IMG/VR virus record: IMGVR_UViG_3300009159_005376
Location: 1 to 25,010 of that record
Origin: a virus
Strand: one strand, 5' to 3'
Length of the DNA: 25,010 nucleotides
In this document: positions 4,137 to 21,275 of the stretch, piece by piece
How the letters are laid out: every line of letters starts with the position of its first letter
Position numbering within the stretch: position 1 is the stretch's first letter
Position numbers and translations under genes: made by a program
Notes under the pieces: model-generated
Told to the model about the DNA's origin: nothing
Databases searched by the model: none
What the model saw: only the letters and a program-made list of their open reading frames with translations

Positions 4137-4167
4137 TAATTATGATTAACCGTGAGACTACTTTATT

Positions 4168-5355
4168 ATGAAATCTACTGACATTCAAAAGAAACAAATT
4201 GTATCTGATCTGATTCAAGCATTTGGTAAAACCGCTGCTAGAAAAGATGTTATTGCTTTTATCAAGCAAAAAGGTATTACTATGCCTAACTGGTTAATCA
4301 ACGGTGAAGCATATCGAGCAGGCCGTGGTCTTATTAATCTTGATGCATTTGGAACAGATAAAATGAACAACAAACCCCATACTCCAGTAACAGCTTCTGC
4401 TGTAGAAATGCCCGCAATGCAAGCTCAAGTTGTTCAATTGCGTCAACGCAAGCTAGTAACAGAAGTTGATAATCTAATTCCAAATAAAGACGCAACATAT
4501 GTGCCGTTTGGTTTTTATAAAGATCTAGAATCTATTGTAAAATCTAAAGCATTTTATCCATTGTTTATTACTGGTCTTACTGGTAACGGTAAAACAACAA
4601 TGGTAGAACAAGTATGTGCTAAATTAAAACGTGAATGTATTCGTGTCAATGTTTCTATTGAAACAGATGAGGATGACCTTGTAGGGGGTTCTACTTTGAT
4701 CGACGGTAATGTTACATTCCGCGAAGGTCCAGTTATTACAGCAATGAAGCGTGGTGCAGTTCTTTTGATTGACGAAATTGATCGCGGTTCAAATAAGTTG
4801 ATGTGTATTCAGGGTATTCTTGAAGGCAAGTCATACTTTAATAAAAAGAACGGTGAAGTAATTTATCCGGCCGAAGGCTTTAATGTTATTGCTACAGCAA
4901 ATACTAAAGGTCGCGGTACAGATGATGGCAAGTATATTGCAGCACAAATTCTTGACGAAGCTTTCTTAGAGCGATTCCCGATTACAGTTGAACAAGAATA
5001 TCCCTCAACCTCAATCGAGCGCAAGATCATTATCAACAATATGGAAACAAGCAATTGCGTAGATGAAGAATTTGCAGACAAGTTGGTGGCTTGGGCCGAG
5101 ATTATTCGTAAGACATATATGGAAGATGCGATTGACGAATTGATTTCTACTCGACGTCTTGTTCATATTGTAAAAGCATTCTCAGTATTTAAAGATCGTA
5201 GCAAGGCAATTAATCTGTGTATTAATCGTTTTGACGATGACACAAAGAATGCGTTTATGGATTTGTACTCTAAGATTGATTCGCCACCCGTTGAAGAACC
5301 AGTTGCCCCTGTTCAAGAAAACAAGGTTACAGAGGATGAAGACATCCCATTTTAA
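4168..5355 (+). CDS. cobS: CobS/MoxR-like AAA+ ATPase
   Basis: A 395-residue AAA+ ATPase of the CobS/MoxR group. Residues 1-65 form a small N-terminal domain. Walker A is GLTGNGKTT (136-144), Walker B VLLIDEID (198-205), sensor 1 lies in NVIATANT (239-246), and the arginine finger is probably Arg269 in EAFLERFP. The GxTGxGKT form and the insertion between Walker A and B (LVGGSTLIDG, FREGPVI) are typical of CobS and MoxR. CobS-like genes are common in T4-like cyanophages, where the name implies the cobalt chelatase of B12 synthesis. Here the preceding gene encodes a matching CobT-like VWA protein, so the phage carries both small partners but no large CobN-like subunit within the window. Role in cobalamin synthesis versus remodelling of another target is open. 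The gene symbol is by similarity only. It is driven by the promoter at 4108-4136. Confidence 0.85.
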   Translation: MKSTDIQKKQIVSDLIQAFGKTAARKDVIAFIKQKGITMPNWLINGEAYRAGRGLINLDAFGTDKMNNKPHTPVTASAVEMPAMQAQVVQLRQRKLVTEVDNLIPNKDATYVPFGFYKDLESIVKSKAFYPLFITGLTGNGKTTMVEQVCAKLKRECIRVNVSIETDEDDLVGGSTLIDGNVTFREGPVITAMKRGAVLLIDEIDRGSNKLMCIQGILEGKSYFNKKNGEVIYPAEGFNVIATANTKGRGTDDGKYIAAQILDEAFLERFPITVEQEYPSTSIERKIIINNMETSNCVDEEFADKLVAWAEIIRKTYMEDAIDELISTRRLVHIVKAFSVFKDRSKAINLCINRFDDDTKNAFMDLYSKIDSPPVEEPVAPVQENKVTEDEDIPF

Positions 5356-5364
5356 AGGAAATAA

Positions 5365-6123
5365 ATGAGTAATGAAAATTTTGCAGTTGTAGATTCGGTG
5401 TATGGTAAATTTATTTTGCCGAAAAATTATACACCGGGTCCCCCAACTCCTCCGCCCTATGTAGAAATGTCTAATACAGGTCGGACACATATTGAGCATG
5501 AAATACAAAATATTCTTGCAATTGTTCACACGCTAGATGATGGATCAATTATTATTGACGGCGGTGCGAATATTGGATTCTTTACTATCCCGGTTGCACA
5601 ATTTATGCGGGAGAGAAACTGCAAAATTATTTCGTTTGAACCGCAAAAGCAATTGTTCTATGCATTAGGTGGTAGTGTTGCCCTGAATGAATTAAACAAC
5701 GTTTATCTACATAATTTAGGTATCGGTGATAAACAATCTATTGCAGAATTATCTGAAATGGATTATAGTAAAAAAGCAGATTATGGTATGGTTACATTGA
5801 CTGAGAAGTCTAATCATATTGAAGTGCCTTATTTGCGTTATAATTCTGCAGATGTAATTACTATTGATTCTATGGAATTACCTGGATGCGATTTCCTTAA
5901 ATTAGATATTGAAGGATATGAGTGTCAGGCATTGCGAGGAGCAATCGATACTATTAAAAAATATAGACCATGGATTTGGATTGAATATAATATGGCAGGT
6001 GAAGATAATATCAAAGCAGAACTAAAAAATATTCCAGACTATGAGTATATTATTATTGATTGGCAAAATATGTTATGTGCTCCGAAAGAACGCATTGAGT
6101 CATCTGGTATAGACTTTAAATAA
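5365..6123 (+). CDS. FkbM-family SAM-dependent methyltransferase
   Basis: A 252-residue class I methyltransferase of the FkbM family, whose members mostly O-methylate sugars or polyketides. Motif I is IIDGGANIGFFT (63-74). The acidic residue binding the SAM ribose is probably Glu92 in SFEPQ. The family motif KLDIEGYE occurs at 179-186 with IWIEYN following. Residues 18-35 are Pro-rich. A clear ribosome site (AAGGA, 5355-5359) begins at the stop of the CobS-like gene. A hairpin terminator follows its own stop. As the first gene of the sugar island it most likely methylates a hydroxyl of the glycan assembled by the downstream enzymes, but the acceptor cannot be read from the sequence. Confidence 0.88.
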   Translation: MSNENFAVVDSVYGKFILPKNYTPGPPTPPPYVEMSNTGRTHIEHEIQNILAIVHTLDDGSIIIDGGANIGFFTIPVAQFMRERNCKIISFEPQKQLFYALGGSVALNELNNVYLHNLGIGDKQSIAELSEMDYSKKADYGMVTLTEKSNHIEVPYLRYNSADVITIDSMELPGCDFLKLDIEGYECQALRGAIDTIKKYRPWIWIEYNMAGEDNIKAELKNIPDYEYIIIDWQNMLCAPKERIESSGIDFK

Positions 6124-6958: not shown

Positions 6959-6992
6959 AATGTATATTATAAATTCATTATAGGAATTGAAA

Positions 6993-8000
6993 ATGAAAAC
7001 AGCATTAATTACTGGTATCACAGGCCAGGATGGATCATACCTTGCAGAATTACTTCTCGAAAAAGGCTATATGGTTCACGGTGTTATTAGACGTAGCTCT
7101 TCAATTAACACAGGTCGCATCGACCACATCTACAGCAATCCCAATTTAAAATTACACTATGGCGACGTAACAGATTCGTTGTCCATTATGAACATACTTA
7201 AGAAGTATGAGCCAGATGAGATTTATAATTTGGCGGCACAAAGTCATGTTAAAGTATCTTTTGAAACTCCCGAATACACAGCGCAGGTTGATGCATTAGG
7301 TACTTTGAAAATTCTCGAATCTGTTAGATTGTTGAACTTAGAACATAAGACAAAAATTTATCAGGCATCCACATCTGAACTGTATGGTTTGGTTCAGGAA
7401 ACCCCACAAAAAGAAACAACCCCGTTTTACCCCAGATCGCCATATGGTGTGGCTAAACTATACGGGTTTTGGATCGTTAAAAATTATCGTGAATCATATA
7501 ATATGTTTGCCTGTTCTGGTATACTATTTAACCATGAATCTCCTCGTCGAGGACATAATTTTGTAACTAAGAAAATTGTAGATGGACTAGAGGCAATTAG
7601 TGCTGGTCGTCAAGAGTGTTTGTATATGGGCAATTTAAATGCTAAACGAGATTGGGGTCACGCTAAAGATTATGTGAAGGCAATGTGGTTAATGCTACAA
7701 CAAGATACACCTGACGACTTTGTTATTGCAACCGGCGAACAATATTCGGTTAAAGATTTTGTTAATAAATGCGCACCCTACTATCACTTATCTATTAGAT
7801 GGGAAGGTGAAGGTCTTAATGAAGTAGGTATCAATAATTACAATAATAAAGTAATTATTCGTGTAGATGAAAAATACTTCCGCCCTGCAGAAGTAGAAAC
7901 TTTATTGGGTGATCCATCAAAGGCAAAGAGTGTGCTAGGTTGGCAGCCTGAGCATACATTCGATAGTTTAGTTGAAGATATGTGTGTTAATTTTGAGTGA
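6993..8000 (+). CDS. gmd: GDP-mannose 4,6-dehydratase
   Basis: Extended short-chain dehydrogenase that converts GDP-D-mannose to GDP-4-keto-6-deoxy-D-mannose with bound NADP, the first step to GDP-L-fucose and related sugars. The 335-residue product has the nucleotide motif GITGQDG (8-14), the [13 protein letters not shown] segment (33-45) typical of this enzyme, the catalytic Thr127 and Glu129 in STSELYG, and Tyr151-x3-Lys155 in YGVAK. Length is slightly shorter than the E. coli enzyme (373). The ATG at 6993 with TAGGA (6981-6985) seven bases upstream is a better start than the in-frame TTG at 6987. It is followed after 7 bases by fcl, so both enzymes of the GDP-fucose branch are co-transcribed. 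No GDP-mannose-forming genes (manB, manC) are present, so GDP-mannose must come from the host. Confidence 0.96.
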
Positions 8001-8007
8001 GGATAAT

Positions 8008-8967
8008 ATGGAAAAGAATAGTAAAATTTTTGTTGCAGGTCATAATGGTTTAGTTGGATCGGCCATTGTTCGTAAACTTCGTAATGAAGGATATGATAAT
8101 TTAATTCTTCGTTCTAGAAACGAATTAGATTTGCGAGATCAACGCGCAGTTCGTAATTTCTTTAGTACAGAAAAACCTGAATATGTTTTCTTAGCTGCTG
8201 CTAAAGTTGGAGGCATTATTGCTAATGCACAGGCCCCTGCAGATTTCACTTATGATAACCTAGCTATTCAGACTAATGTTATTGATTCTGCATATCGCAA
8301 TGGCGTTAAGAAACTATTGTTCCTGGGTTCTGCTTGCATCTATCCTAAGATCACATCACAACCAATTAAAGAGGAATATTTGCTTGAAGGCAAATTGGAA
8401 CCTACAAATGAAGGGTATGCTCTTGCTAAGATTGTCGGATTAAAATTATGCGAATATTATAAACAACAATATGGCTTCAATGCTATCAGTTTAATGCCTG
8501 TTAATTTATATGGTCCGAATGATAACTTTGATCCTACAAAGAGTCACGTTATTCCAGGTATGATTCGTAAATTCTATGATGCAAAGAAAAATGGTCTCGC
8601 ATCAGTAAGTTGCTGGGGCGATGGATCACCTACAAGAGAATTTTTACATTCTGATGATTTAGCAGATGCTTGTTTGTTCATGATGAATAGTTATAATGAT
8701 ACGCAATTTGTTAATGTAGGTAGCGACAATGAAATTACAATTAAAGCATTGTCTGAAATGATTAAGAAAGAGATTGGGTTTGAGGGTGAAATTATTTGGG
8801 ACACAACTTATCCCAATGGTCAACCTTTGAGAAAATTAGATTATACTTTGATGGATAATCTGGGATGGAAATCTAAAGTATCTTTTGAAGAAGGTCTTCG
8901 TACAACTGTTAAATGGTTTATGGATCATAAAGTAATTAATTATGATATCCAATTTGGAGGTAATTAA
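8008..8967 (+). CDS. fcl: GDP-L-fucose synthase
   Basis: Bifunctional epimerase-reductase that converts GDP-4-keto-6-deoxy-D-mannose to GDP-L-fucose with NADPH. In the 319-residue product the Rossmann motif is GHNGLVG (11-17), and the family-specific AAKVGGI is at 64-70. The catalytic residues Ser108, Cys110 (in GSACIYP), Tyr137 and Lys141 (YALAK) match positions 107, 109, 136 and 140 of the E. coli enzyme almost one for one. GSPTREFLHSDDLA is conserved near 205-218. The ATG at 8008 is preceded by GTGAGGAT that overlaps the gmd stop; an in-frame TTG at 7972 would lie inside gmd and is unlikely. The product would feed the family-10 transferase two genes on. Confidence 0.96.
   Translation: MEKNSKIFVAGHNGLVGSAIVRKLRNEGYDNLILRSRNELDLRDQRAVRNFFSTEKPEYVFLAAAKVGGIIANAQAPADFTYDNLAIQTNVIDSAYRNGVKKLLFLGSACIYPKITSQPIKEEYLLEGKLEPTNEGYALAKIVGLKLCEYYKQQYGFNAISLMPVNLYGPNDNFDPTKSHVIPGMIRKFYDAKKNGLASVSCWGDGSPTREFLHSDDLADACLFMMNSYNDTQFVNVGSDNEITIKALSEMIKKEIGFEGEIIWDTTYPNGQPLRKLDYTLMDNLGWKSKVSFEEGLRTTVKWFMDHKVINYDIQFGGN
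8956..8960 (+). promoter_or_regulatory. Strong ribosome binding site inside the end of fcl
   Basis: GGAGG lies eight bases before the ATG at 8969 and is encoded within the last codons of fcl. It decides the start of the next gene against an in-frame upstream codon at 8942. Confidence 0.8.
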
Positions 8968-8968
8968 T

Positions 8969-9319
8969 ATGTCTGATCTAGGATTAGCAATCGAAAATGC
9001 AATTAAGGATACGGTAGATCGCGTATTAACTAAAGGCGATATGGTAGATACAGACTATATTGCTACAGATAATTTAGGTGAAATTGTTGAGAAGTTAGTT
9101 ATTCTTCATATCCGTACTTGGATGCTTGAGGATCAATTGCCAATGGCAAAAGATGATGCGGAAGTAGGTATCATTAAAAAGAAAATTGATATCTGTTTTA
9201 AAATTAAAAGACCAAAATTTGTGCAGGCAATTAATCTATTAGTTGAAGATGCTATTAGAAACAATAAGTCTTTAAAAGAAGACTCGGTTAAATTATACAA
9301 AGGATTTGCTAATGAATAA
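8969..9319 (+). CDS. Small helical protein of unknown function in the fucose module
   Basis: A 116-residue, probably all-helical, soluble protein. I do not recognise it firmly. The central part LVILHIRTWMLEDQ (43-56) followed by IIKKKIDICFKIKRPKFVQAI (around 68-88) has the pattern of a helix with paired Trp-x-x-Glu-Asp and a Lys/Arg-rich helix. This is weakly like DUF4254-type proteins that sit in bacterial sugar clusters. No catalytic motif is visible. The start at 8969 is fixed by GGAGG. The stop overlaps the next start (9312) by 8 bases. Position between fcl and the fucosyltransferase suggests an accessory role in glycan assembly, but that is inference from context only. Confidence 0.65.
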   Translation: MSDLGLAIENAIKDTVDRVLTKGDMVDTDYIATDNLGEIVEKLVILHIRTWMLEDQLPMAKDDAEVGIIKKKIDICFKIKRPKFVQAINLLVEDAIRNNKSLKEDSVKLYKGFANE

Positions 9320-10190
9320 ACTTCGCCTCGGTATTACAGATACACATGACCACCTTGCACAGTTCTTTGTAGCATTGATTGGTAGCCGGTATGATTTAGT
9401 ACTTGTCGATGTAGAGCAAGAAAAACCTGACGTATTATTATTCGGAGATAATAATTTTGGCAATAATAATATGAAGTTTAGTCGGGATGATTGTGTTAAG
9501 CTTTTATATACGGGCGAAAATCAGCGCCCCGAAGACTATGATTGCGATTATGCAATTTCGTTTGACCACAACTTTGAGCCGTGGCATTATCGTTTGCCGT
9601 TATATGTAATCTATATGTGGGCATTAGAATATATTCATAATACGCCCTATGATTATAATTACATTTTTAATCCGGAAGTAAAGGAAAAGACGGACTTTGC
9701 ATCTTTTGTTGTATCAAATCCTAAGTGCGAGGAACGAAATACCTTTTTTAAATTATTGTCCGAATATAAAAAGGTAGATAGCGCAGGCAAGTTATATAAT
9801 AACATTAATACTAACCTTGAAGGTGAACAATCTAAAATTGATTTCTTATCCTCGCGTAAATTCAACATTTGTTTTGAACCAGAATCACATCCTGGATATA
9901 CTACAGAGAAAATTTTGCACGCATTCTATGCGGGGACTGTTCCAATTTATTGGGGTTCGGAAACAATTGCAAACGATTTTAATCCGGCATCTTTCATAAA
10001 TGTCCACGATTTCAATAGCCAGGAAGAGGCTATTGAACATATAATTAAGGTTGATCAAGATGATGAACTTTATGCATCTTATATAAATGCACCTAAATTT
10101 TTAAATGGTGTACCTCCCTCACATATAATGTTGGACAATTTCTTAAATTGGTTTGATGCTATAGTATATAATAAAATTAATAAAAGATGA
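9312..10190 (+). CDS. Family 10 glycosyltransferase, probable alpha-1,3/4-fucosyltransferase
   Basis: The 292-residue product matches the GT10 fold. It has YTGEN (66-70, the GT10 TGENxxP-type motif with RPEDYD next), FASFVVSNP (129-137), and the donor-binding block FNICFEPES (184-192) with GYTTEKILHAFYAGTVPIYW at 195-214. It ends with ASFINVHDF (226-234). GT10 enzymes transfer L-fucose from GDP-L-fucose, which the gmd and fcl products just upstream would supply, so pathway and transferase agree. The ATG at 9312 follows AGGA (9301-9304) by seven bases, and the stop overlaps the next start in ATGA. No membrane segment is visible, as in bacterial GT10 enzymes. The acceptor is unknown: it may be a phage glycan or a host surface sugar. 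Confidence 0.88.
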   Translation: MNKLRLGITDTHDHLAQFFVALIGSRYDLVLVDVEQEKPDVLLFGDNNFGNNNMKFSRDDCVKLLYTGENQRPEDYDCDYAISFDHNFEPWHYRLPLYVIYMWALEYIHNTPYDYNYIFNPEVKEKTDFASFVVSNPKCEERNTFFKLLSEYKKVDSAGKLYNNINTNLEGEQSKIDFLSSRKFNICFEPESHPGYTTEKILHAFYAGTVPIYWGSETIANDFNPASFINVHDFNSQEEAIEHIIKVDQDDELYASYINAPKFLNGVPPSHIMLDNFLNWFDAIVYNKINKR

Positions 10191-11596
10191 AAATACAGAC
10201 ATTTATTTTCAACTGGCGTGGACAGTATGAAAAGACAAAAGAAAAACAAAAACAACTGAGTGCCATTGGGGTCATGCCTGTCGTTATTAATAGTGACGAC
10301 AATCACCGTGAGGATGATCCTAATTGGCACAACATTGGTGAAGATAGTTATTTTACTGCACAATTTTTAAAGGCAATTGAATTGTTTGATGGTGACGCCA
10401 TGTTCCACATTCAAGCAGATGCATCCTATACTGATTGGGTAAGTATTTACAAAGGTGCTGAAGATTGTTTTGATACTTACAATTGGGGAATATATGCGCC
10501 TAATGTAGATTATACCTGGTACGATTCTTCAAGGACAAATTTAACATCTTTTGATTTAGAAGAACCCAATCTAAAAATGGTTGCAAATACTGATTGCACC
10601 TGTTGGTTTATTCATAAAGATATTATCAATGAGGCTAAGCGCAGAGGTATTGATTTCTCCCCGTATAAGATGGGTTGGAGTTTTGATATTGTTTATCCTG
10701 CAATTAGTTACATCTGCAAAAGACCAGTTATCCGAGATTACGCATATACTATTGACCATCCGTCAGGAACCAATTATAATAAGGATCAAGCTGAAAGAGA
10801 AATGCATACCTTGTACAATACTTTAGATGATGAAGTAAAACAAGCATTTCAGTATATTAAAACAGACATCAATAAACTTGCAGAATACTATGTGGAAAAA
10901 GAAATGAACGTAGCAATTGTATCGTGCCATAATCAAAGTTATATTCCTTTGGCAAATTTAACTTGGGATAGAAATAAAAAGCTTTATGCTGAAAGGCATG
11001 GATATTCTGCAGAATGTAAAGTATGGGAAAACAGAAACAATCCTCCAGGTTGGGAGAAGATGTTGCACGTCAAAGAATTGTTCTCAGATCCTACAAAGAA
11101 TATTAGTTGGGCATGGGTAACAGGTTGCGATTCTTTGATTACAAATTTTGATATTCCTATTACATCTGTTATTGATGAAGCATATCACTTTATTATTTCT
11201 GCGGATATTAATGAACTTAATGCTGATAGCTTCTTGATTAAGAATAGTCCCGAGGGTAACGAGTATTTAGATTTCTTATTATCTAAAATGAAAGATCCTG
11301 TGTTTATGAATCAACCGCCTATCGGTCATGGTAGATTTGAGCAAGGTGCAATGGTAGATACTTATGAACAATGGAAACACATAATTAAAGTTGTTTCGCA
11401 AAGAACATTTAATTCATATGATTATAGTTATCTAGCTTGGCAACCTCCTCAAATAGATAAGACTGGCGCGCATGGTAATTGGATGCAAGGCGATTTGTTA
11501 TTGCATTTGCCTGCAATGACATTGCAAAGACGTATCAAATATATTGAGCATTATATGAATTGTATAACAGGAGTGGGCAATCCACTAATGATGTAA
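10187..11596 (+). CDS. Two-domain glycosyltransferase-like protein
   Basis: A 469-residue protein with two apparent GT-A-type domains. Domain 1 (about 1-230) begins with a beta strand IQTFIFNW, has HIQADAS (74-80) where GT-A enzymes carry their metal-binding aspartates, and GWSFDIVYP (163-171). Domain 2 (about 240-469) starts with NVAIVSCHN and resembles the GMA12/MNN10 (GT34) family: GWEKMLHVKELF (288-299), SWAWVTGCDSLITN (307-320) and ISADINELNADSFLIKNS (337-354). The first Asp of the usual DxD pair is replaced (GCD instead of DAD), so either the metal site is altered or the domain has changed function. The start overlaps the GT10 stop by 4 bases. The glycosyltransferase assignment is moderately sure for domain 2 and weak for domain 1. 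Confidence 0.65.
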   Translation: MKIQTFIFNWRGQYEKTKEKQKQLSAIGVMPVVINSDDNHREDDPNWHNIGEDSYFTAQFLKAIELFDGDAMFHIQADASYTDWVSIYKGAEDCFDTYNWGIYAPNVDYTWYDSSRTNLTSFDLEEPNLKMVANTDCTCWFIHKDIINEAKRRGIDFSPYKMGWSFDIVYPAISYICKRPVIRDYAYTIDHPSGTNYNKDQAEREMHTLYNTLDDEVKQAFQYIKTDINKLAEYYVEKEMNVAIVSCHNQSYIPLANLTWDRNKKLYAERHGYSAECKVWENRNNPPGWEKMLHVKELFSDPTKNISWAWVTGCDSLITNFDIPITSVIDEAYHFIISADINELNADSFLIKNSPEGNEYLDFLLSKMKDPVFMNQPPIGHGRFEQGAMVDTYEQWKHIIKVVSQRTFNSYDYSYLAWQPPQIDKTGAHGNWMQGDLLLHLPAMTLQRRIKYIEHYMNCITGVGNPLMM

Positions 11597-12525
11597 TGCA
11601 AACAGACTTTCACACAATAAACAAACTAATTGCAGACAAATTAGATTCCGGTGAACCGTTTTCGGTTATAAGAATTGATAATACTGCAGGCCATGTAATT
11701 GATTGTAGACTTAGAGGAGAATATCCTTCGGGTGAACATTATCATGAACGAAGTTTAGTTGAAGGCGGTATACATCCGCATACTGTAGATTATGCTTACA
11801 ACTATGTTATTCCTCCTACAATTAAAGCCCTTGAAGATGCCGACATCGTGGGCTTTGTTGATTGTGCGCAAACATTACAGCAAAGCCCCACAATTATAGA
11901 AACTTATAAAGATAAACCATCATTCTTTAGCCATAGTTTTTTAGTTATGGATCCTGGTGCATTACTTGGTTTCGATACATTGCACCCATACTCTTGGGGA
12001 GCAGTTGCTGACCCATGGACTGCGCATTTGAAGGGCAAAAAAGTATTGACTATATCTACTCATTGTGAATCTATTAATCACCAATGGAAAAACATTGATA
12101 AGATTTGGGGAAGCAATCGAGATAAAATTGCACCTTTTGAATTAGTAGGTACAATTAGATCACCTTATCATCCCATGATGGATGATAGACAATATCCTAA
12201 CTGCAATGCTTGGCACGAAAGTGTTGAATATATAAAGCATGAGATGGAAAAGTATGACTTCGATGTATTGCTATCTGGAGCAACAACATCTTCTCCTATG
12301 TATGTGGATCATGCTAAGAAGATGGGCAAGGTAGGAATTCAAACAGGTGGAACACTACAATTGTTTTTTGGCATCTTGGGTTATCGTTGGGCCCCTGAAG
12401 CTAAGAATGGATATGCTCCTTGGGCAGCAATGTATAATGAACATTGGATATATCCATTAAAAGAGGACTCTGCTCAACAAAGAGAGAATTATAAATTTTT
12501 AGAAACTAACTACGCATATTGGTAA
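11596..12525 (+). CDS. Putative GT-D-type glycosyltransferase (DUF1792-like)
   Basis: A 309-residue protein. The N-terminal FSVIRIDNTAGHVI (22-35) and the C-terminal block DVLLSGATTSS with GKVGIQTGGTLQLFFGILGYRW (about 253-274) resemble the GT-D fold glycosyltransferases first described as DUF1792. There a conserved GG-x-LQ-x-x-FGI-x-G-x-RW segment ends the donor site. The start is an ATG in TAATG that shares an A with the previous stop. The nearest AGGAG (11569-11573) is 22 bases upstream, so restart by the terminating ribosome is likely. It is the last gene before the RfbH cluster. The family assignment comes from recalled motif patterns and is moderate; the sugar and linkage are unknown. 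Confidence 0.6.
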   Translation: MQTDFHTINKLIADKLDSGEPFSVIRIDNTAGHVIDCRLRGEYPSGEHYHERSLVEGGIHPHTVDYAYNYVIPPTIKALEDADIVGFVDCAQTLQQSPTIIETYKDKPSFFSHSFLVMDPGALLGFDTLHPYSWGAVADPWTAHLKGKKVLTISTHCESINHQWKNIDKIWGSNRDKIAPFELVGTIRSPYHPMMDDRQYPNCNAWHESVEYIKHEMEKYDFDVLLSGATTSSPMYVDHAKKMGKVGIQTGGTLQLFFGILGYRWAPEAKNGYAPWAAMYNEHWIYPLKEDSAQQRENYKFLETNYAYW

Positions 12526-12527
12526 TT

Positions 12528-13850
12528 ATGGAAAAACAAGATATTATTAAAAGTGTTGCTGAATTTATCCAAGAGAAAAACAGCAAAAAGACATGGACCG
12601 CTGGCAAAGATTTTGTTAATTATGCCGGCCCATATTTTGATGAACAGGAAATTACGGCAGCAGTATCTACATTGTTAGATAGTTGGCTTGTAATGGGAGA
12701 TCAATCAATAAAATTTGAGAAACAATTCCCTAAGCAATTTCAAAAGAATTTTGGAATACTTACTAACTCAGGATCAAGTTCTAACCTATTGATGATGTCT
12801 ACGCTTACATCTAAGCGAGGTTACAATTTACCTAAAGGTACAAAGGTACTAATGCCTATTGCAGGATTTCCTACAACATTGAATCCGACATTACAAGTTG
12901 GATTTGAACCTGTATTTTTAGATATTGAATTAGATACACTTAATTTAGATTTAACTAGAGCAGAAGAACTAATTAAGAAACACGACATTCGAGTAATCAC
13001 ATTTGCTCACGTATTGGGCAATCCCCCTAATATGCGTTGGGTAATGGAACTTGTTAATCGTTATAATTTGATTCTATTAGAAGATTGTTGCGATGCTTTA
13101 GGTTCAACCTATGGCGGACAACCGTTAGGATCATTTGGTGAAATGGCATCTTGCTCATTCTATCCTGCGCACCATATGACAATGGGTGAAGGTGGTTTTG
13201 TAGCATGTAAGTCTTATGAGACTGAAGTTATTCTTCGTTCATTCAGAGAATGGGGTCGCGGGTGTTATTGCGTAGGTCCGGAAGCTAATAAACTAAAGTG
13301 TGGTTCTTGTGGCAAACGATTCCAAGAATGGATTCCAGAAATGCCTGGTGAAATTTTTGACCACAAATATGTTTATGATGAGATTGGATATAACCTTAAG
13401 CCTATTGAATTGCAAGGTGCAATGGGATTAGTTCAATTAGAAAAACTGGAGACAATTCATGCACTTCGTCGTCGTAATTATGGTTTGTTGTTTGATATCT
13501 ACAGCAAATACGAGGAGTATTTCCATCTACCAAGAGCACAAGAATACTCAGACCCAAGTTGGTTTGCGTTCCCATTAACAATTCGTGCAGGTTCACCTTT
13601 CAAGCGCAGTGACATTGTAGACTATTTGGAAGAGAATTTAATTCAGACAAGACCTTATTTTGCCGGCAATATTATGTTGCAACCTGCATATTCTCATTTA
13701 ATGAATCCTGCAGATGCAAGAGATAATTTCCCAGTTGCTACAATGACAATGACTAATACTTATTTCCATGGTACAAGTCCTGTTATTACTCCAGAACAAA
13801 TTGCATACATCGGAGAAACTGTAGACAGTTTTATGAGTTTATTTAAATGA
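12528..13850 (+). CDS. rfbH: RfbH/E1-type NDP-4-keto-6-deoxyhexose 3-dehydratase (PLP and [2Fe-2S])
   Basis: A 440-residue member of the DegT/DnrJ/EryC1 PLP family, and specifically of the E1 (RfbH, AscC, DdhC) branch that removes the 3-hydroxyl from an NDP-4-keto-6-deoxyhexose. In SFYPAHHMTMGEGG (210-223) the usual PLP lysine is replaced by His215, the hallmark of the dehydratases. Cysteines 188, 246, 248 and 258 are spaced C-x57-C-x1-C-x9-C, close to the C-x57-C-x1-C-x7-C iron-sulfur motif described for E1. Length fits E1. ColD-type enzymes of the GDP pathway lack these cysteines. E1 needs a flavin-iron-sulfur reductase partner (E3) that is not in this window. The ATG at 12528 is preferred over an in-frame TTG at 12519 that lies in the previous gene. 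The natural substrate would be the product of the RmlB-like dehydratase at 17531. Confidence 0.9.
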   Translation: MEKQDIIKSVAEFIQEKNSKKTWTAGKDFVNYAGPYFDEQEITAAVSTLLDSWLVMGDQSIKFEKQFPKQFQKNFGILTNSGSSSNLLMMSTLTSKRGYNLPKGTKVLMPIAGFPTTLNPTLQVGFEPVFLDIELDTLNLDLTRAEELIKKHDIRVITFAHVLGNPPNMRWVMELVNRYNLILLEDCCDALGSTYGGQPLGSFGEMASCSFYPAHHMTMGEGGFVACKSYETEVILRSFREWGRGCYCVGPEANKLKCGSCGKRFQEWIPEMPGEIFDHKYVYDEIGYNLKPIELQGAMGLVQLEKLETIHALRRRNYGLLFDIYSKYEEYFHLPRAQEYSDPSWFAFPLTIRAGSPFKRSDIVDYLEENLIQTRPYFAGNIMLQPAYSHLMNPADARDNFPVATMTMTNTYFHGTSPVITPEQIAYIGETVDSFMSLFK

Positions 13851-14470
13851 TATCCAATCAAGAATTAATAGATTTTGAAACAGAAATCGGAGAATTATTT
13901 AATCAAGCAAAGATTAGAGCTCCGATTCACTTATCCTCGGGGAATGAAAAACAAATTCGCCAAGTATTTAAATTTATTGATACTGAAAAAGATTGGATAT
14001 GTTGCACTTGGCGCAACCATTATCAGGCATTGTTAAAAGGCATTCCACCTGAGATATTAAAAGAACAAATTGTAAAAGGCAAAAGCATGATTTTGAATAT
14101 GCCTGAATACAAATTTATTTGTTCTAGTATTGTGGGCGGTATTCCTAGTATAGCAACAGGCATTGCGCTTGCAGCTAAACTAAAAGGAACCTCTGAAAAG
14201 GTTTGGTGTTGGGTTGGAGATATGAGTGCAGAGACGGGTGCATGGGCAGAGGCATACAAATATGCGGTTGCCCAAGATTTGCCTATTACTTTTATTGTAG
14301 AAGATAACGAATTAAGTGTAATGACTCCTACTGAAACAGTATGGGGAAATCACAAATGGTATTTGCCTGAGCAAAACGTCGATAAGTTTGTAAGTGAACA
14401 CTTAATATACTACAAATATAAAAATGATAAGTATCCTCATGCAGGAGCAGGTGTAAGGGTTCAATTTTAA
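13847..14470 (+). CDS. Thiamine diphosphate enzyme, E1-alpha-like (transketolase N-type) subunit
   Basis: A 207-residue protein that binds the pyrophosphate end of thiamine diphosphate. The motif runs from GDMSAETGAW (124-133) to EDNE (152-155), the GD...N metal-binding pattern, with GGIPSIATGIALAAK (97-111) before it, as in pyruvate dehydrogenase E1-alpha and transketolase. It is much shorter than PDH E1-alpha (about 350) and ends in YPHAGAGVRVQF (196-207), which looks like a natural end, not a break. The partner subunit follows with a TAATG overlap. With RfbH directly upstream, the likely role is transfer of a two-carbon unit to a keto-deoxy sugar, as proposed for AviB1/AviB2 in avilamycin. 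That link is inference from family and context. Confidence 0.82.
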   Translation: MISNQELIDFETEIGELFNQAKIRAPIHLSSGNEKQIRQVFKFIDTEKDWICCTWRNHYQALLKGIPPEILKEQIVKGKSMILNMPEYKFICSSIVGGIPSIATGIALAAKLKGTSEKVWCWVGDMSAETGAWAEAYKYAVAQDLPITFIVEDNELSVMTPTETVWGNHKWYLPEQNVDKFVSEHLIYYKYKNDKYPHAGAGVRVQF

Positions 14471-15012
14471 TGACTACCGCAAAATACAATGCTGAATTAA
14501 AGCAAGCAATGAATTGGATTGCAGATCAGGATAATGTAATGATACTTGGTCAAGCAGTTTGTTATGCCGGCACAGGTTGCTATGAAAGTCTAACAGAAGT
14601 TCCTGCTAATAAGAAAATGGAATTTCCTGTAGCAGAAAATTTGCAAATAGGTGTTAGTACTGGCCTAGCACTTAACGGAATTGTTCCCGTTAGTGTAGTT
14701 CCTCGTTGGAATTTTTTATTAGCTGCAACAGATCAAATTATTAACCATTTGGATAAAATGCGATTAATGAGTGACGGTAAATGTAGCCCTAAAGTTATTA
14801 TTAGAGTTGCAGTAGGATCAGAGACACCTATTGATCCTCAAGATCAACATAAAGGTAACTTTGCAGAAGCATTTAGATTGATGTGCAAAACAATTGATGT
14901 CGTAGAATTAAAAACAATTGAGGATATCATGCCCGCATATCAAAAATCATATAATAGAACAGATGGTATTAGTACCATACTTGTAGAGTTTCCAGATTTT
15001 GGAAAGGCATAA
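14470..15012 (+). CDS. Thiamine diphosphate enzyme, E1-beta-like (transketolase pyrimidine-binding) subunit
   Basis: A 180-residue protein corresponding to the pyrimidine-binding domain of PDH E1-beta and transketolase. FPVAENLQIGVSTGLALNG (52-70) carries Glu56, the residue that activates the thiazolium ring, and VPVSVVPRWNFLLAATDQI (72-90) follows as in E1-beta. The C-terminal transketolase domain of E1-beta is missing. With the preceding gene it makes a minimal two-subunit enzyme with one complete active site per alpha-beta interface. The ATG at 14470 shares its A with the previous stop, giving tight coupling and probably equal subunit amounts. Donor and acceptor are unknown; pyruvate or a ketol phosphate are the usual donors in the family. 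Confidence 0.82.
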   Translation: MTTAKYNAELKQAMNWIADQDNVMILGQAVCYAGTGCYESLTEVPANKKMEFPVAENLQIGVSTGLALNGIVPVSVVPRWNFLLAATDQIINHLDKMRLMSDGKCSPKVIIRVAVGSETPIDPQDQHKGNFAEAFRLMCKTIDVVELKTIEDIMPAYQKSYNRTDGISTILVEFPDFGKA

Positions 15013-15013
15013 A

Positions 15014-16021
15014 ATGAGAGTTTGTGATTGGATTGCCGAATATTTGTATTCAGCAGGAATTAAAAATGTACATGGTTTAATGGGCGGTGGTGCTAGTGGC
15101 CTGAATGATGGATTTATTAAAAACAAAAATATCAATTATATTTGTTACCATCATGAACAAGGCGCTGGGCATGCTGCAATTGGCGAAGCAAAATTTACAG
15201 GTAACATCGCGGTTGTTAATCCTACAACGGGGTGTGCTGGAACAAATTGCGCAACATCAGTATTAAACGCATGGCAGGATTCGACTCCTGTATTGTTTAT
15301 ATCTGGCAATGTTAGAACAAATACTTGCTCAGGCCATATTAACAATATGAGAAAGATAAACATTCGTAAGTATGGGGTACAAGAACATCATGTGGTGGAT
15401 ACATATAAATCAATAACAAAGTTTAGTCAATTTGTAACTAGACCCGAAGATGTTCCTTTCGCATTATCTTTAGCAATACATATAGCTAAAAGTGATAGAC
15501 CAGGCCCCGTTTGGTTAGATATTCCTAGTGATGTTCAAACAGCAAAGATGCCTACAAGTTATGTAGAATATAATGCTGGTCAACGTAAAAGACCTATTGA
15601 AGTTTCTCATATAAAGGCAACGATTGAAAAGTCTGAAAGACCAATTGTTCTTGCAGGTTATGGTATTAGACAAGCAGATGCTGTATATAACTTTAATAAA
15701 TTCATTGAATCATATAAGATTCCATACGTTAGTACATATGGTGCAAGAGATTATAATGATGCCTATCATCCTTTGAATGTGGGTGCCATAGGCATTAAAG
15801 GTAGTCGAGCAGGAAACTTTGCTATGCAGAATGCTGACCTGTTGTTAATTTTAGGTTGTAGTTTGGGTGCTAGTGTAATTGGATATGATCCAAAACAATT
15901 TAGCCCACACAGTTATAAAATTATGGTAGATATAGATGCAGATGAATTCGATAAAGGTATTGTTCATATAGATGAAACATATAACACATCATTGAATGAA
16001 TTTTTTGGAGCAATGTTATGA
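15014..16021 (+). CDS. Acetolactate-synthase-like thiamine diphosphate enzyme, N-terminal half
   Basis: A 335-residue protein equal to the pyrimidine-binding and central domains of acetohydroxyacid-synthase-type enzymes. Glu48 in HHEQGAGHAAIGEAK (46-60) is the catalytic glutamate. TTGCAGTNCATSV (71-83) is the conserved loop after it. RPGPVWLDIPSDVQ near residues 164-177 closes the first domain, and LAGYGI near 214 opens the central domain. The protein stops where the linker to the pyrophosphate domain would begin, and that domain is encoded by the next gene with a 4-base ATGA overlap. YerE, which adds a two-carbon unit from pyruvate to a CDP-4-keto-dideoxyhexose to make yersiniose, belongs to this superfamily and fits the context. 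The ATG at 15014 follows GGAAAGG (15001-15007). Confidence 0.85.
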   Translation: MRVCDWIAEYLYSAGIKNVHGLMGGGASGLNDGFIKNKNINYICYHHEQGAGHAAIGEAKFTGNIAVVNPTTGCAGTNCATSVLNAWQDSTPVLFISGNVRTNTCSGHINNMRKINIRKYGVQEHHVVDTYKSITKFSQFVTRPEDVPFALSLAIHIAKSDRPGPVWLDIPSDVQTAKMPTSYVEYNAGQRKRPIEVSHIKATIEKSERPIVLAGYGIRQADAVYNFNKFIESYKIPYVSTYGARDYNDAYHPLNVGAIGIKGSRAGNFAMQNADLLLILGCSLGASVIGYDPKQFSPHSYKIMVDIDADEFDKGIVHIDETYNTSLNEFFGAML

Positions 16022-16758
16022 CAAGAGCCGAATGGGTTGAAAAATGTGCATGGTGGCGACACAAGTGGCCTGTAATGCAAAATGAATATAGAGCAGATAA
16101 CGACACATATCGAGTAAACATCTATGCTGTTCTTGATGCAATTAATAAGCATAGTACTGCTAATGATATTTTAATGGGGGATGCTGGTAGTATTAGCTAT
16201 GCTGGCCCTGTTGCGTTGAATGCTAAAAAGGGACAAAGACTTATCTTTAGTCCTGCACAAGCTGATATGGGATGGGCATTGCCTGGTGCAATTGGAGTTA
16301 GCTTAGCTAGTAAACAACCCGTTATTGCTATTACGGGCGACGGCAGTTTTATGAGTAATATACAAGAACTTGCAGTTGTTAAACAACATAATCTTAATAT
16401 TAAATTTGTGATACTGAATAATAATGGATATTTAAGTATTAAAAATACACAGACAAAATATTTTGATGGTCGCGTATATGGCACAAGTTCTGATACTGGA
16501 TTATGGTTTCCTTCATTTAAAAATATTGCCGCATCTTTTGGTATAGGATATGAGGATGTTAGACTTGCAAAAGATTTAGATAGAATGGGCGAAATGTTAT
16601 CTAAAGAAGGCCCTGCAATTATAGATTGCCAATGTCTTTTAGAACAAGAAATATTGCCAGCACAGGCATTAAAGAATGGTAAACAATGTGGCCTACACGA
16701 CATGATGCCGTTTCTAAGCGATGAAGAATTAGAAAGTGAAATGATTGTAAAACTATGA
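16018..16758 (+). CDS. Acetolactate-synthase-like thiamine diphosphate enzyme, C-terminal half
   Basis: A 246-residue protein equal to the pyrophosphate-binding domain of acetohydroxyacid-synthase-type enzymes. The motif GDGSFMSN (107-114) through LNNNGY (133-138) is the classic GDG...NN metal site, and SPAQADMGWALPGAIG (78-93) precedes it as in the family. The first 35 residues (MTRAEWVEKCAWWRHKW and on) belong to the linker that in single-chain relatives follows the central domain. Together with the previous gene it reconstitutes a full-length enzyme of about 580 residues, so this is a split gene, not a loss. The overlap ATGA keeps the halves coupled. The next gene, a reductase, overlaps its stop by 4 bases. 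Confidence 0.87.
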   Translation: MTRAEWVEKCAWWRHKWPVMQNEYRADNDTYRVNIYAVLDAINKHSTANDILMGDAGSISYAGPVALNAKKGQRLIFSPAQADMGWALPGAIGVSLASKQPVIAITGDGSFMSNIQELAVVKQHNLNIKFVILNNNGYLSIKNTQTKYFDGRVYGTSSDTGLWFPSFKNIAASFGIGYEDVRLAKDLDRMGEMLSKEGPAIIDCQCLLEQEILPAQALKNGKQCGLHDMMPFLSDEELESEMIVKL

Positions 16759-17534
16759 AAATTTTAATTGTAGGTGCCGGCGGATTTGTTGGTACATATT
16801 TGACTGAGCATTTAGCTAAAAAGCACGAAGTATATCCTTTATACAAAGGCACACTTGACTTATTGGATAATACTACAGTTACTACATTATTAGAAACACT
16901 GCAAGTTGATATAGTTGTTAATTGTTTAACTTTTGGCGGTAAAGAAAAGGTTAAAGAAAATAGCGCAACAGATGTAGCAGATAACCTTGCAATGTTCTAT
17001 AATTTTTATACCAATCAACATTTGTATACTAAATACATTAATATAGGTTCTGGAATTGAAAAATCAGAAGACAGTTCTGCATATGCATTTTCTAAAAGAA
17101 CAATTCATAATATTATAAAAAACAACAATAAATTTTTCACACTTAGATTATATGGTTGTTTTGGAAAAGGCGAACCTGATTTTAGATTGTTAAAAAAGTT
17201 TCTATCAGCAACTGAGCCTCTAAAAATTGCAGATAAGTATTTTGATTATTTTTCAATTCAAGATTTTGGAAATGTTGTAGAATATATTGCGAATGAAACA
17301 CAAACAGGTAACGAACGATACTATAGTTATGATATAGATTGTGTTTATGGACAAAAAATGTTGCTTAGCGAGTTTTTAGATTACTTTTGCGATATAAATA
17401 ATATTGAGAAGAATTTTGTAGTAGAGTCATACTCCGATAAACATTATACCGGAGATAGTAATAATCTAATGAAACTGCAAGGGGCTGGTCTTAGATTATA
17501 TGGCTTAGCCCATGGATTGAAAGTTTATATATGA
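16755..17534 (+). CDS. NAD(P)-dependent epimerase/reductase (extended SDR)
   Basis: A 259-residue short-chain dehydrogenase with nucleotide motif GAGGFVG (7-13) and catalytic Tyr110-x3-Lys114 in YAFSK. NIGSG (96-100) gives the nearby serine. FTLRLYGCFGKGEPDF matches the extended SDR fold of nucleotide-sugar reductases. It is somewhat shorter than typical epimerases (300-340) because the C-terminal substrate lobe is reduced. It is flanked by the split thiamine enzyme and the RmlB-like dehydratase with 4-base overlaps on both sides. A likely job is reducing a keto group of the deoxy sugar, either at C4 or, as YerF does in yersiniose synthesis, on the added side chain. That assignment is inference from gene order. 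Confidence 0.82.
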   Translation: MKILIVGAGGFVGTYLTEHLAKKHEVYPLYKGTLDLLDNTTVTTLLETLQVDIVVNCLTFGGKEKVKENSATDVADNLAMFYNFYTNQHLYTKYINIGSGIEKSEDSSAYAFSKRTIHNIIKNNNKFFTLRLYGCFGKGEPDFRLLKKFLSATEPLKIADKYFDYFSIQDFGNVVEYIANETQTGNERYYSYDIDCVYGQKMLLSEFLDYFCDINNIEKNFVVESYSDKHYTGDSNNLMKLQGAGLRLYGLAHGLKVYI

Positions 17535-18478
17535 AAAAAGTAGTTTATGTAACCGGTTGTCTTGGTTTTATTGGTTACCATGTCACAAAGAAATGTCTTG
17601 ATGCAGGATACTATGTATTTGGTATTGATAAAAAGACATACGCAAGCAATTTAAATTTCCTGCCAGAATTAGAAAAGTCTCTAAAATTTAAATTTTTAGA
17701 ATCAGATATTAATGACATTGAGCGCATTCATGATTGCGATTACATCATTAATACTGCGGCAGAAACACACGTAGATAATAGTATTGCCAGCTCAGATGTA
17801 TTCTTACAGAGTAACATCAATGGAGTGCATAAGTTATTAGAACTTATAAAAGCATTACCAAAAGCAAGAAGGCCAGTATTATTGCATTTTAGTACAGACG
17901 AAGTCTACGGAGATATAGAAGAAGGGTTTCATACTGAAACAGATCTTCTTAAACCCAGTAACCCTTACTCAGCAACAAAGGCTGCTGCGGATATGTTAGT
18001 TACAGCCTGGGCAAGAACATATGATGTACCTTATATAATTGTTAGACCCACTAACAATTACGGTATAGGACAATATGTTGAAAAATTTATACCCAAAGCA
18101 GTTAAGCATTTGATGTTGGACAGACCAATTTTAATGCACGATAACGGCACACCCACAAGAACATGGTTGCACGTTAGTGATACTGCATCTGCAGTCTTAA
18201 CAATTATTGAATCTGGCAAGATTAACGAAACATATAATATTTCTGGCAATTACGAAGAACAAAATATTGTTGTTGCTAATAAAATATTAAAAGCATATGG
18301 CATTGATAAATCTGATTACTTAGATCATATGGATTTCTCTGAAAAGAGACAAGGCCAAGATGTTAGATATGCAATAGATGATTCTAAATTAAAATCGCTT
18401 GGATGGAGACCAGTAGCTAATTTTGATACTCGATTAAAAGAAATTGTACGATATTACAAAGAACATTTCATATGGTAA
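17531..18478 (+). CDS. rfbB: dTDP-glucose 4,6-dehydratase-like enzyme (RmlB family)
   Basis: A 315-residue extended SDR. It has GCLGFIG (9-15), AAETHVDNSI (76-85), the STDEVYGD motif (121-128) with the Asp123-Glu124 pair and Thr122 of RmlB dehydratases, Tyr146-x3-Lys150 in YSATK, and RPTNNYGIGQYVEKFIP as in dTDP-glucose 4,6-dehydratase. The CDP-glucose enzyme RfbG has a different motif here, so a dTDP or UDP sugar is more likely than a CDP sugar. It would make the NDP-4-keto-6-deoxyglucose needed by RfbH and the branching enzymes. No rmlA-type nucleotidyltransferase is present, so the NDP-glucose must come from the host. It is slightly shorter than E. coli RmlB (361). The next gene overlaps the end by 7 bases. 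Confidence 0.9.
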   Translation: MKKVVYVTGCLGFIGYHVTKKCLDAGYYVFGIDKKTYASNLNFLPELEKSLKFKFLESDINDIERIHDCDYIINTAAETHVDNSIASSDVFLQSNINGVHKLLELIKALPKARRPVLLHFSTDEVYGDIEEGFHTETDLLKPSNPYSATKAAADMLVTAWARTYDVPYIIVRPTNNYGIGQYVEKFIPKAVKHLMLDRPILMHDNGTPTRTWLHVSDTASAVLTIIESGKINETYNISGNYEEQNIVVANKILKAYGIDKSDYLDHMDFSEKRQGQDVRYAIDDSKLKSLGWRPVANFDTRLKEIVRYYKEHFIW

Positions 18479-19879: not shown

Positions 19880-20560
19880 ATGGGAATTGGTAATCAGGAA
19901 ATGCAGTTTTTAGTCAACGTAAGTCAGCACGGCCCGTTTGGTAAAACAATTACTGCAGGTAGACAAGGTCTTCATGTGCAAAAACATAATGTTGAACATT
20001 TTTTAAACATAAAAGATTTTAAACCTAGTCAATATTGTGACGATATGTTAATGGAATATTTTGGAGCAACAAAGGTTGATTCAATAGATTATTCTGATTA
20101 TGAGGGCGCAAACATTATTCATGATATGAATTTACCTTTGAATCGCCCTGAAGAATATGATACTGTTATTGATAGTGGAACATTAGAACACGTATTTAAT
20201 ATTAATGAAGCATTTAAAAACATAACTAGATTATGTAAAGTAGGTGGCCAAATTTTACATGCACTGCCTGCAAATAATAATTGCGGACATGGATTCTGGC
20301 AATTCTCTCCTGAATTATTCTTTGCATTGTATTCTGAAAAGAATGGGTATAAAGACACACAAGTATTTGTGGGCGATACCGCAGACTTGGGATGGACATA
20401 TGAATTGGATCCGCCTGAGCCCGGACAACGATTGGAAATAGAACATCCAAGACCAGTATATGTTATGGTTAGAACTGTTTTAGCGAGAAAAGATTTCGCA
20501 CATAAAAATATACAACAAGCAGATTACGCATATCAATGGAGCAAAGCTGCAAATGACTAA
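19880..20560 (+). CDS. Class I SAM-dependent methyltransferase
   Basis: A 226-residue methyltransferase. KVDSIDYSDYEGANIIHDMN (65-84) ends motif I/II with an acidic residue for the SAM ribose. DTVIDSGTLEHVFN (94-107) is motif IV with the surrounding pattern of Methyltransf_11/23 proteins. LCKVGGQILHALP (118-130) is the post-motif, followed by GHGFWQFSPELFFALY (136-151). Unlike typical members, the glycine-rich loop of motif I is not obvious. It overlaps the next gene by 8 bases. Placed among glycosyltransferases, it most likely methylates a sugar or the glycan's terminal residue. It is distinct from the FkbM enzyme at 5365, so the island carries two methyltransferases. Confidence 0.78.
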   Translation: MGIGNQEMQFLVNVSQHGPFGKTITAGRQGLHVQKHNVEHFLNIKDFKPSQYCDDMLMEYFGATKVDSIDYSDYEGANIIHDMNLPLNRPEEYDTVIDSGTLEHVFNINEAFKNITRLCKVGGQILHALPANNNCGHGFWQFSPELFFALYSEKNGYKDTQVFVGDTADLGWTYELDPPEPGQRLEIEHPRPVYVMVRTVLARKDFAHKNIQQADYAYQWSKAAND

Positions 20561-21275
20561 GGTGACAGTAATTACAGCAACAACAGGTTCAGAATATCTA
20601 AGAGACAATATTAGATCAGTTGCATCCCAAACATATCTTGATGTTCAACATCTTGTGGTTGTAGATGGCGAGCATCATCTAGACAAGGTGGCGCAAATCT
20701 TGCAGCAAGAAAACCACAATGCAGACTTAGTTGTCTTACCTTATGCAACAGGGGTCGATCAATATAATGGTCATAAAATTTATGGCGCGTTTACTCATAT
20801 TGCAAAGGGCGATTATATTTGTTACCTGGATGAGGATAATTGGTTAGAACCAGAACACGTAGAATCCCTAATAAAAACGGTTGGCGATAACCAATGGGCG
20901 GCGACCTTAAGAAAGATTGTAGACAATGAAGGTAAGTTCATTTGTAATGATGATTGTGAAAGCCTATGTAATTGGGAATCGGTTATCAGAGATTATTTTG
21001 TAGATGTTAATTGTTTCTTTTTTAGTAAACCATTAGCATTGCAATTAAGTCCTATTTGGTTTAGACGTGCAAGGCATCCAGACGATCAACCTGAGGTTGA
21101 TAGAGCATTGACTTATACGCTTAAAGATAATAAAATAGAGTGTGAGGTGACAGGAAAGTATACTGTAAATTATCGAGCAGGTAATAGAGCAGATTCGGTT
21201 CAAGGCCAATTCTTTTTGAAAGGCAATGAGATTATGAAACAAAAATATAATGGAGTATTCCCGTGGAGAAAGTAG
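20553..21275 (+). CDS. Glycosyltransferase family 2
   Basis: A 240-residue GT2 (GT-A fold) enzyme. The N-terminal KVTVITATTGSEYLRDNIRS (3-22) is the nucleotide-binding strand and helix, VVVDGEHH (35-42) carries the uridine-contacting Asp38, and GDYICYLDEDNWLEPEHVE (86-104) contains the DxD metal site Asp93-Glu-Asp95. The C-terminal RRARHPDDQPEVDRALTYTL holds acidic residues suitable for a catalytic base. There are no membrane helices, so it acts in the cytoplasm. It is the last gene of the island and overlaps the following small gene by 13 bases. The donor sugar is unknown. Confidence 0.87.
   Translation: MTKVTVITATTGSEYLRDNIRSVASQTYLDVQHLVVVDGEHHLDKVAQILQQENHNADLVVLPYATGVDQYNGHKIYGAFTHIAKGDYICYLDEDNWLEPEHVESLIKTVGDNQWAATLRKIVDNEGKFICNDDCESLCNWESVIRDYFVDVNCFFFSKPLALQLSPIWFRRARHPDDQPEVDRALTYTLKDNKIECEVTGKYTVNYRAGNRADSVQGQFFLKGNEIMKQKYNGVFPWRK
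21252..21265 (+). promoter_or_regulatory. Ribosome site and GTG start of the DUF3310-like gene
   Basis: GGAG (21252-21255) stands seven bases before GTG (21263-21265). No in-frame ATG lies nearby (an ATG at 21250 is out of frame), so GTG is taken as the start. The whole signal is inside the end of the GT2 gene. Confidence 0.7.

Follow-up and report, generated by a model that had tools for sequence, protein, structure and literature searches.

Two groups of thiamine diphosphate (ThDP)-dependent enzymes are known to branch sugars, the YerE-like enzymes and the α-KADH2 enzymes (PMC12247030; PMC4753412; PMC10338323), and these are the known groups for which the joining of units from 2-oxo acids to keto sugars, or to analogues of such sugars, has been shown (PMC12247030). 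Candidates for both are present in the IMG/VR virus record IMGVR_UViG_3300009159_005376, positions 1 to 25,010 of which make up the stretch of DNA analysed here (the window). Seven genes at positions 12528-18478 of this T4-like myovirus are read here, with a probability of roughly three in four, as a phage-borne pathway for a nucleoside diphosphate (NDP)-linked, C4-branched 3,6-dideoxy sugar of the yersiniose type. As in the yersiniose A pathway of the Yersinia O-antigen (RfbF/RfbG/RfbH/E3, YerE and YerF), RfbH, a YerE-like enzyme and a short-chain dehydrogenase/reductase (SDR) are found in one cluster. The phage differs in having an RmlB-like protein for RfbG, no RfbF or E3 in the window, a split thiamine enzyme and an extra E1 pair. 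The YerE-like enzymes (YerE, ErwE and JanthE; PMC12247030) resemble the split phage enzyme in domain order, catalytic Glu, GDG and GYxxIKxTQ motifs, tree position and linkage to RfbH, although each is one polypeptide where the phage has two. The extra pair resembles the α-KADH2 enzymes (AviB1/B2, Pau11/12, EvdU5/EvdS3 and KbDH) in being a two-subunit, E1-like enzyme in a deoxysugar cluster, for which a two-carbon unit from pyruvate is expected.

All seven open reading frames (ORFs) named in the earlier note are present in the order that it gave, on the + strand and with intact frames. The first encodes a predicted RfbH/E1-type NDP-4-keto-6-deoxyglucose 3-dehydratase, a pyridoxamine phosphate and [2Fe-2S] enzyme (12528..13850). 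It is followed by minimal E1-alpha-like (PP domain, 207 residues, 13847..14470) and E1-beta-like (PYR domain, 180 residues, 14470..15012) thiamine subunits, the N half (PYR and central domains, ending at 16021) and C half (PP domain, 16018..16758) of the YerE-like enzyme, an SDR proposed to be the branch-ketone reductase (16755..17534), and an RmlB-like NDP-glucose 4,6-dehydratase (17531..18478). The overlaps of 1-4 bases that had been claimed for the whole series are found at five junctions (4, 1, 4, 4 and 4 bases) and not between E1-beta and the thiamine N half, where a TTG start (14999) gives a 14-base overlap and an ATG start (15014) a 1-base gap. When IMG/VR was scanned, the YerE-like N half returned 15 loci and E1-alpha 76, including two contigs near-identical to the window. 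The resulting set of 89 viral loci includes a few near-duplicates; it was sampled through the thiamine genes, so that frequencies within it are not estimates. Loci are numbered with an L where they have to be told apart.

The RfbH ORF scores 436.9 bits against NF011936, above the NCBI curated equivalog cut-off of 423, and among solved structures it comes closest to the E1 enzymes 3bcx and 3bb8 (PDB; 324 and 320 bits). Residue H218 (YPAHHMTMGEGG) replaces the Lys that binds pyridoxal phosphate in aminotransferases and is conserved in 57/57 RfbH-type relatives. Four cysteines (C191, C249, C251 and C264) align with Cys of 3bcx and are likewise invariant in the related phage proteins (57/57); as in E1, these are probably the [2Fe-2S] ligands. 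The window protein is therefore probably a 3-dehydratase with the catalytic His and four cluster Cys. A DegT-family protein is encoded in 76 of the 89 viral loci and the catalytic His is present in every full-length one, these being either of the full RfbH type or of a second His type that lacks the cluster Cys. This second type (SFYASHVITAGG..GGMV) replaces RfbH at L013:7895-9049 and in about 13 similar viral genes, and its nearest solved relative is still E1. Wherever a locus has a DegT protein, 3-deoxygenation chemistry would thus appear to go with the thiamine enzymes.

The minimal E1 pair has the E1-alpha and E1-beta folds and the ThDP residues of the α-KADH2 enzymes (a conserved Glu and GD..N). 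Pfam E1_dh matches the alpha-like subunit above cut-off (56.7 bits), covering the first half of E1_dh alone, and in the alignment of relatives G124-D125 is invariant and N154 nearly so. The beta-like subunit is a weak Pfam match (23.1 bits, cut-off 27) that scores 50 bits with the NCBIfam model for pyruvate dehydrogenase (PDH) E1-beta. Its AlphaFold model (pLDDT 82) has as best PDB folds the E1-beta of PDH and of branched-chain 2-oxo acid dehydrogenase (TM 0.72-0.79 over the query), and E56 is invariant among relatives. It corresponds to the first half of E1-beta alone, without the C-terminal transketolase domain, and the minimal size of both subunits sets the pair apart from the α-KADH2 enzymes as well as from PDH-type E1. 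In the E1-alpha tree, built without AviB1/B2, Pau11/12 or other antibiotic-type sequences, the phage proteins cluster together (100/99), and their sister group (97/93) consists of bacterial E1 genes from Verrucomicrobia, Parcubacteria, Bacteroidales and Acidimicrobiales, the majority of them next to a gene for a His-type dehydratase. Every minimal E1 protein is split from the long (PDH-type) E1-alpha at 100/100. The earlier comparison with AviB1/B2 thus stands for mechanism only, the E1 proteins being a separate minimal family; because AviB1/B2 and Pau11/12 are outside the tree, the pair is likened to them in its working and is not counted as a member. To our knowledge, no member of the minimal E1 type has been characterised.

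Minimal E1 proteins are found in other settings as well. A fused form lies beside zinc alcohol dehydrogenase and kinase genes at L002:15049-16194 (P-TIM68), L003:14971-16179 (S-SM2) and L104-L106, in cyanophages, Prochlorococcus and Parcubacteria-type genomes, as part of another pathway. The same minimal pair adjoins radical-SAM-like genes in L103, L107 and L108 (Desulfobacterales, a deltaproteobacterium and a nanoarchaeote).

The two ORFs after the E1 pair encode the N plus central and the C domains of a single thiamine enzyme, matching TPP_enzyme_N/TPP_enzyme_M (94 bits) and TPP_enzyme_C (110 bits), in both cases above the Pfam cut-off. A frameshift artefact is ruled out as the source of the split because the same split is found in the relatives L007-L010 and L015. 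The catalytic Glu lies within HHEQ in the N half, and the C half carries GDG followed by the signature GYLSIKNTQ. For each half the best PDB match is 8rph, at 164 bits against 138 for Escherichia coli IlvB (N half) and 110 against 64 (C half). In the alignment 8rph has a CDG motif, as reported for JanthE, a YerE-like enzyme (PMC12247030), and on the basis of this motif 8rph is probably JanthE. In a tree with a small reference set, one crystallised member and YerE itself not included, a 100/99 branch (98% of bootstraps) sets the phage proteins, 8rph and the RfbH-linked enzymes of Bacteroidota apart from IlvB, IlvI, Gcl and PoxB of E. coli. The motif GYxxIKxTQ is common to the YerE-like proteins, whereas acetolactate synthases have YLGMVxQWQ or similar at this place. 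Tree position with 8rph and the RfbH-linked enzymes and the shared motif make the analogy to YerE, first drawn in the earlier note, a strong one.

Both trees place the thiamine proteins with relatives from sugar clusters and not, as would have spoken against a sugar pathway, with ordinary metabolic enzymes. The top NCBIfam names, acetolactate synthase and PDH E1, would fit ordinary auxiliary metabolism of branched-chain amino acids or pyruvate, lying by chance beside a 3,6-dideoxyhexose pathway. This is very improbable, as both proteins fall outside the acetolactate synthase and long E1-alpha branches, the linkage to an RfbH-type dehydratase, RmlB and SDR is repeated over the 89 loci, the window has no E2/E3 or IlvN partner, and no C-terminal domain is present in the beta subunit of the E1 pair. 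An identity as an ordinary acetolactate synthase or PDH is rejected on these grounds of trees, linkage and domain loss. In an annotated phage collection the matches of the YerE-like half are mostly host-like acetolactate synthases in bacterial-looking records.

The RmlB-like protein scores 307 bits with TIGR01181, under the cut-off of 365 and far above the cytidine diphosphate (CDP)-glucose model (79), and 9/9 of its best PDB matches are deoxythymidine diphosphate (dTDP)-glucose 4,6-dehydratases. RfbH and RmlB lie in the same gene run as the YerE-like enzyme, as expected of a cluster that supplies a 4-keto-3,6-dideoxy sugar. The SDR is a weak match to Pfam RmlD/Epimerase (about 40 bits) that keeps the glycine motif, and among relatives the Tyr of YxxxK is present in 83/83 and the Lys in 82/83. 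A scan with the SDR as query returned just the two contigs near-identical to the window.

A search of phage genomes for the gene order, as the earlier note had suggested, finds the module recurring across the 89 viral loci. Chance or a sequencing artefact as the source of the gene set is excluded by its recurrence in dozens of divergent viral contigs. RmlB is present in 81 of the 89 loci, and in 79 the SDR follows the thiamine gene, or a PanB-type gene behind it, with its start no more than 60 bases away. The thiamine enzyme is the E1 pair only in 69 loci, the YerE-like enzyme only in 13 and both in seven, two of the seven being near-copies of the window. Both enzymes use the same slot, and in the RmlB tree the type switches 12 times, a scatter equal to that of shuffled labels. 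In the closest relative (L007, 82% identical in RmlB) the YerE-like gene starts 2 bases after RfbH, and the 16.6 kb of this contig contain no E1 pair. That two unrelated thiamine enzymes share one slot before one reductase would be expected if both catalyse the same kind of reaction. This supports a module for a branched sugar of yersiniose type in which the thiamine enzymes are interchangeable, and which would be widespread in environmental phages.

What was observed, namely which genes are present, their catalytic residues, their places in the trees, their repeated linkage and the interchange, supports, at the level of sequence, the earlier proposal that the phage makes an NDP-linked branched deoxy sugar. 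The following scheme, from substrates and donor to product, target and the sequence of steps, is inferred. The RmlB-like dehydratase would turn host NDP-glucose into NDP-4-keto-6-deoxyglucose, from which RfbH would take off the 3-hydroxyl, with electrons from a host reductase, giving NDP-4-keto-3,6-dideoxyglucose. A thiamine enzyme would then decarboxylate a 2-oxo acid, most simply pyruvate, and put the two-carbon unit on the C4 ketone to form a tertiary alcohol. This step could be carried out by either of two unrelated enzymes, the minimal E1 pair or the split YerE-like enzyme, and the window phage carries both. The SDR would reduce the branch ketone, and neighbouring glycosyltransferases would transfer the product, most likely in the cytoplasm onto a phage component.

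Several points weigh against this pathway. RmlB and RfbH point to different nucleotides, dTDP and CDP respectively, and no named enzyme is more than distantly similar to the SDR. The small reference set behind the YerE-like tree counts here too. E1 relatives also occur beside the zinc alcohol dehydrogenase and kinase or the radical-SAM genes described above, and the E1 family is therefore not tied to sugar branching. A Fer2 (E3) reductase was not found in the 17 phage contigs searched, so the RfbH step needs host electrons. Lastly, a single acetyl branch does not explain two branching enzymes in one phage.

This last point would be met by a longer or twice-built branch, the YerE-like enzyme either using an elaborated 2-oxo acid, like ErwE, or extending with a second unit the acetyl ketone that E1 has formed, to give a higher-carbon sugar. 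ErwE prefers 4-hydroxy-2-oxo acids and α-KADH2 enzymes give C2 branches (PMC12247030), the window and several other contigs carry both thiamine enzymes, and some related loci add genes that could elaborate a donor, namely a PanB-type gene that separates the thiamine gene from the SDR, or a block of HpcH/HpaI aldolase, SDR and DHQ-synthase-like genes that precedes the thiamine gene, as in Bacteroidota L137/L140. The PanB, aldolase and DHQ-synthase-like genes are, however, all absent from the window, and its YerE-like protein does not share a subclade with the fused PanB-linked proteins, which branch deeper and have the motif CYGIIKQFQ. For the window phage a longer branch is thus possible and rather unlikely, and the single C2 branch is preferred.

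At L010:11759-12688, L013:11791-12726, L078:12975-13901 and in seven other viral loci the YerE-like gene and the SDR are separated by just the PanB-type gene (ketopantoate hydroxymethyltransferase, 319-327 bits), which suggests an elaborated 2-oxo acid donor in these phages. In phage L038 (3819-6273) HpcH/HpaI aldolase, SDR and DHQ-synthase-like genes, identified with Pfam, lie beside the YerE-like gene as in bacterial L137/L140. DJ-1/PfpI, cupin-like and HAD-like genes lie between E1-beta and the YerE-like gene at L040:11180-12781 and L045:11184-12777. It may be, and this is put forward tentatively, that T4-like phages keep a sugar chassis (RmlB, His-type dehydratase and SDR) and exchange a branching cassette, which is either the E1 pair or a YerE-like enzyme in split or fused form and may be accompanied by donor genes of the PanB, aldolase or DHQ-synthase-like type. 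The branched sugars would then differ from one related phage to the next and might include higher-carbon ones, the branch could be extended twice in phages that have both enzymes, and the outcome would be combinatorial variation of viral glycans.

In bacteria, a YerE-like gene above a strict threshold is found in four of 247 genomes of the class covered by the search. One operon (L141) carries RfbH, RfbF-like, RfbG-like, SDR and thiamine enzyme genes. In L137 the order is thiamine enzyme, HpcH/HpaI-like, SDR, DHQ-synthase-like, RfbH and a probable E3 reductase, and L140 has thiamine enzyme, aldolase, SDR and DHQ-synthase-like genes; the RfbF, RfbG, E3 and aldolase names in these three clusters were assigned by eye from sequence. 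The CDP version of the yersiniose A set is thus seen in a Bacteroidota cluster and also in viral L015, which has the split thiamine enzyme, an RfbF-like, cytidylyltransferase-like gene (TIGR02623, 202 bits, cut-off 300), a 4,6-dehydratase scoring nearly equally with the dTDP and CDP models, and RfbH (592 bits).

An NTP_transferase domain (PF00483) is found in nine of 29 related contigs, several of these being long fusions, with an RmlA-like protein in two and an RfbF-like one in one. The gene is absent from most of the related contigs searched, including several of 165-197 kb, so phage-encoded supply of NDP-glucose is set aside and host supply is assumed. Neither a Wzx flippase (PF01943) nor an initiating sugar transferase (PF02397) was found in 18 related viral contigs of up to 212 kb. 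Such absences are weak evidence because contigs may be incomplete. Together with the many glycosyltransferases, the lack of lipid-linked assembly genes favours direct cytoplasmic transfer to a virion protein or DNA. The sugar could instead remodel the lipopolysaccharide (LPS) or capsule of the host, given that yersiniose and related sugars belong to O-antigens (PMC4753412) and that such cyanophage clusters are named LPS islands (PMC3037559). The missing PF01943 and PF02397 genes argue otherwise, and slow change of the host surface would seem of little gain to a lytic T4-like phage, so that this use is unlikely, though a real contender. DNA hypermodification through a second thymidylate-synthase-type enzyme is unsupported, though conceivable, as three of ten contigs have a single gene of this type, the other seven have none, and a second was seen in none of the ten.

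The LPS islands of T4-like cyanophages (P-SSM2, S-SM2 and P-TIM68) are similar to the window in bringing genes for nucleotide sugars together with glycosyltransferases in a T4-like phage, and a fused minimal E1 protein, about 42% identical, is encoded in S-SM2 and P-TIM68. They differ in that this E1 is of a different clade and lies beside zinc alcohol dehydrogenase and kinase/heptose genes, without the RfbH-YerE-SDR module. The function of these islands is an open question (PMC3037559). Sullivan et al. raised the possibility of 'stuffer DNA' for cyanophage LPS genes (PMC3037559), and the window island might by analogy be non-functional filler; this is scarcely credible given seven intact frames, conserved catalytic residues and retention of the module while neighbours and thiamine enzymes vary. 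Rare deoxy sugars made by giant viruses of the Megavirinae decorate the capsid fibrils of the virion (PMC10117803), and decoration of the virion is among the uses favoured here for the phage sugar. Those viruses are eukaryotic and thiamine-dependent branching is not mentioned for them (PMC10117803).

The earlier statement that no phage pathway of this kind has been described met no contradicting paper, and no paper on YerE-like or α-KADH2 enzymes in phages was found, in the open-access literature, subscription papers being outside the search. Viral rfbH has been reported from Sargassum viromes (PMC11295528), and a large global ocean survey of auxiliary metabolic genes deliberately left LPS-type islands out of its catalogue (PMC11360552). 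The kinds of enzyme are known in bacteria; what is new, as far as searched, is their setting in phages, the E1 type that is both minimal and split, the division of the YerE-like enzyme into two genes, and the interchange. If the proposed pathway is correct, phages would be a widespread, unrecognised reservoir of enzymes for tertiary-alcohol branched sugars, including minimal E1 and split YerE-like types, and would offer a testable answer to what phage LPS islands do (PMC3037559). Such enzymes are wanted as biocatalysts (PMC12247030).

Other sugar genes in the window, all on the + strand, surround the module. A GDP-mannose 4,6-dehydratase (Gmd; GDP, guanosine diphosphate) is encoded at 6987..8000 (TIGR01472, 545.8 bits, cut-off 415), followed by a GDP-fucose synthase-like protein (Fcl, 8011..8967; NF047922, 444 bits, cut-off 500) and a GT10 fucosyltransferase-like protein (9306..10190; PF00852 79.8 and PF18025 60.3 bits, both above cut-off). 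With these genes (6987-10190) the phage probably has a second sugar pathway, for making and transferring GDP-fucose. A GT34-like glycosyltransferase (10187..11596; PF05637, 61.4 bits) and, immediately upstream of RfbH, a GT-D-fold-like protein (11560..12525; PF22882, 25.8 bits, just under the cut-off of 27) come next, and a GT2 glycosyltransferase (20553..21275; PF00535, 38.3 bits) lies beyond the module. An FkbM-type methyltransferase (5365..6123; PF05050, 63.6 bits) may O-methylate a sugar.

The run of sugar genes lies between T4-type genes at both ends of the window, which include peptide deformylase and, from PHROG matches, the replication genes gp46-like (SbcC-like), gp45, gp44, gp62 and a RegA-type translation repressor. 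GC content is 30-39% across the whole window, and a tRNA search of it found none. Promoter-like matches overall are at chance level; one perfect sigma-70 consensus (TTGACA-17-TATAAT, with an extended -10) lies at 4108-4136, shortly upstream of the sugar region. A large 'peptidase' gene (PHROG 459), vWA-like by eye, and then a CobS-like AAA ATPase (PHROG 249, 'porphyrin biosynthesis') are found at 1880-5355.

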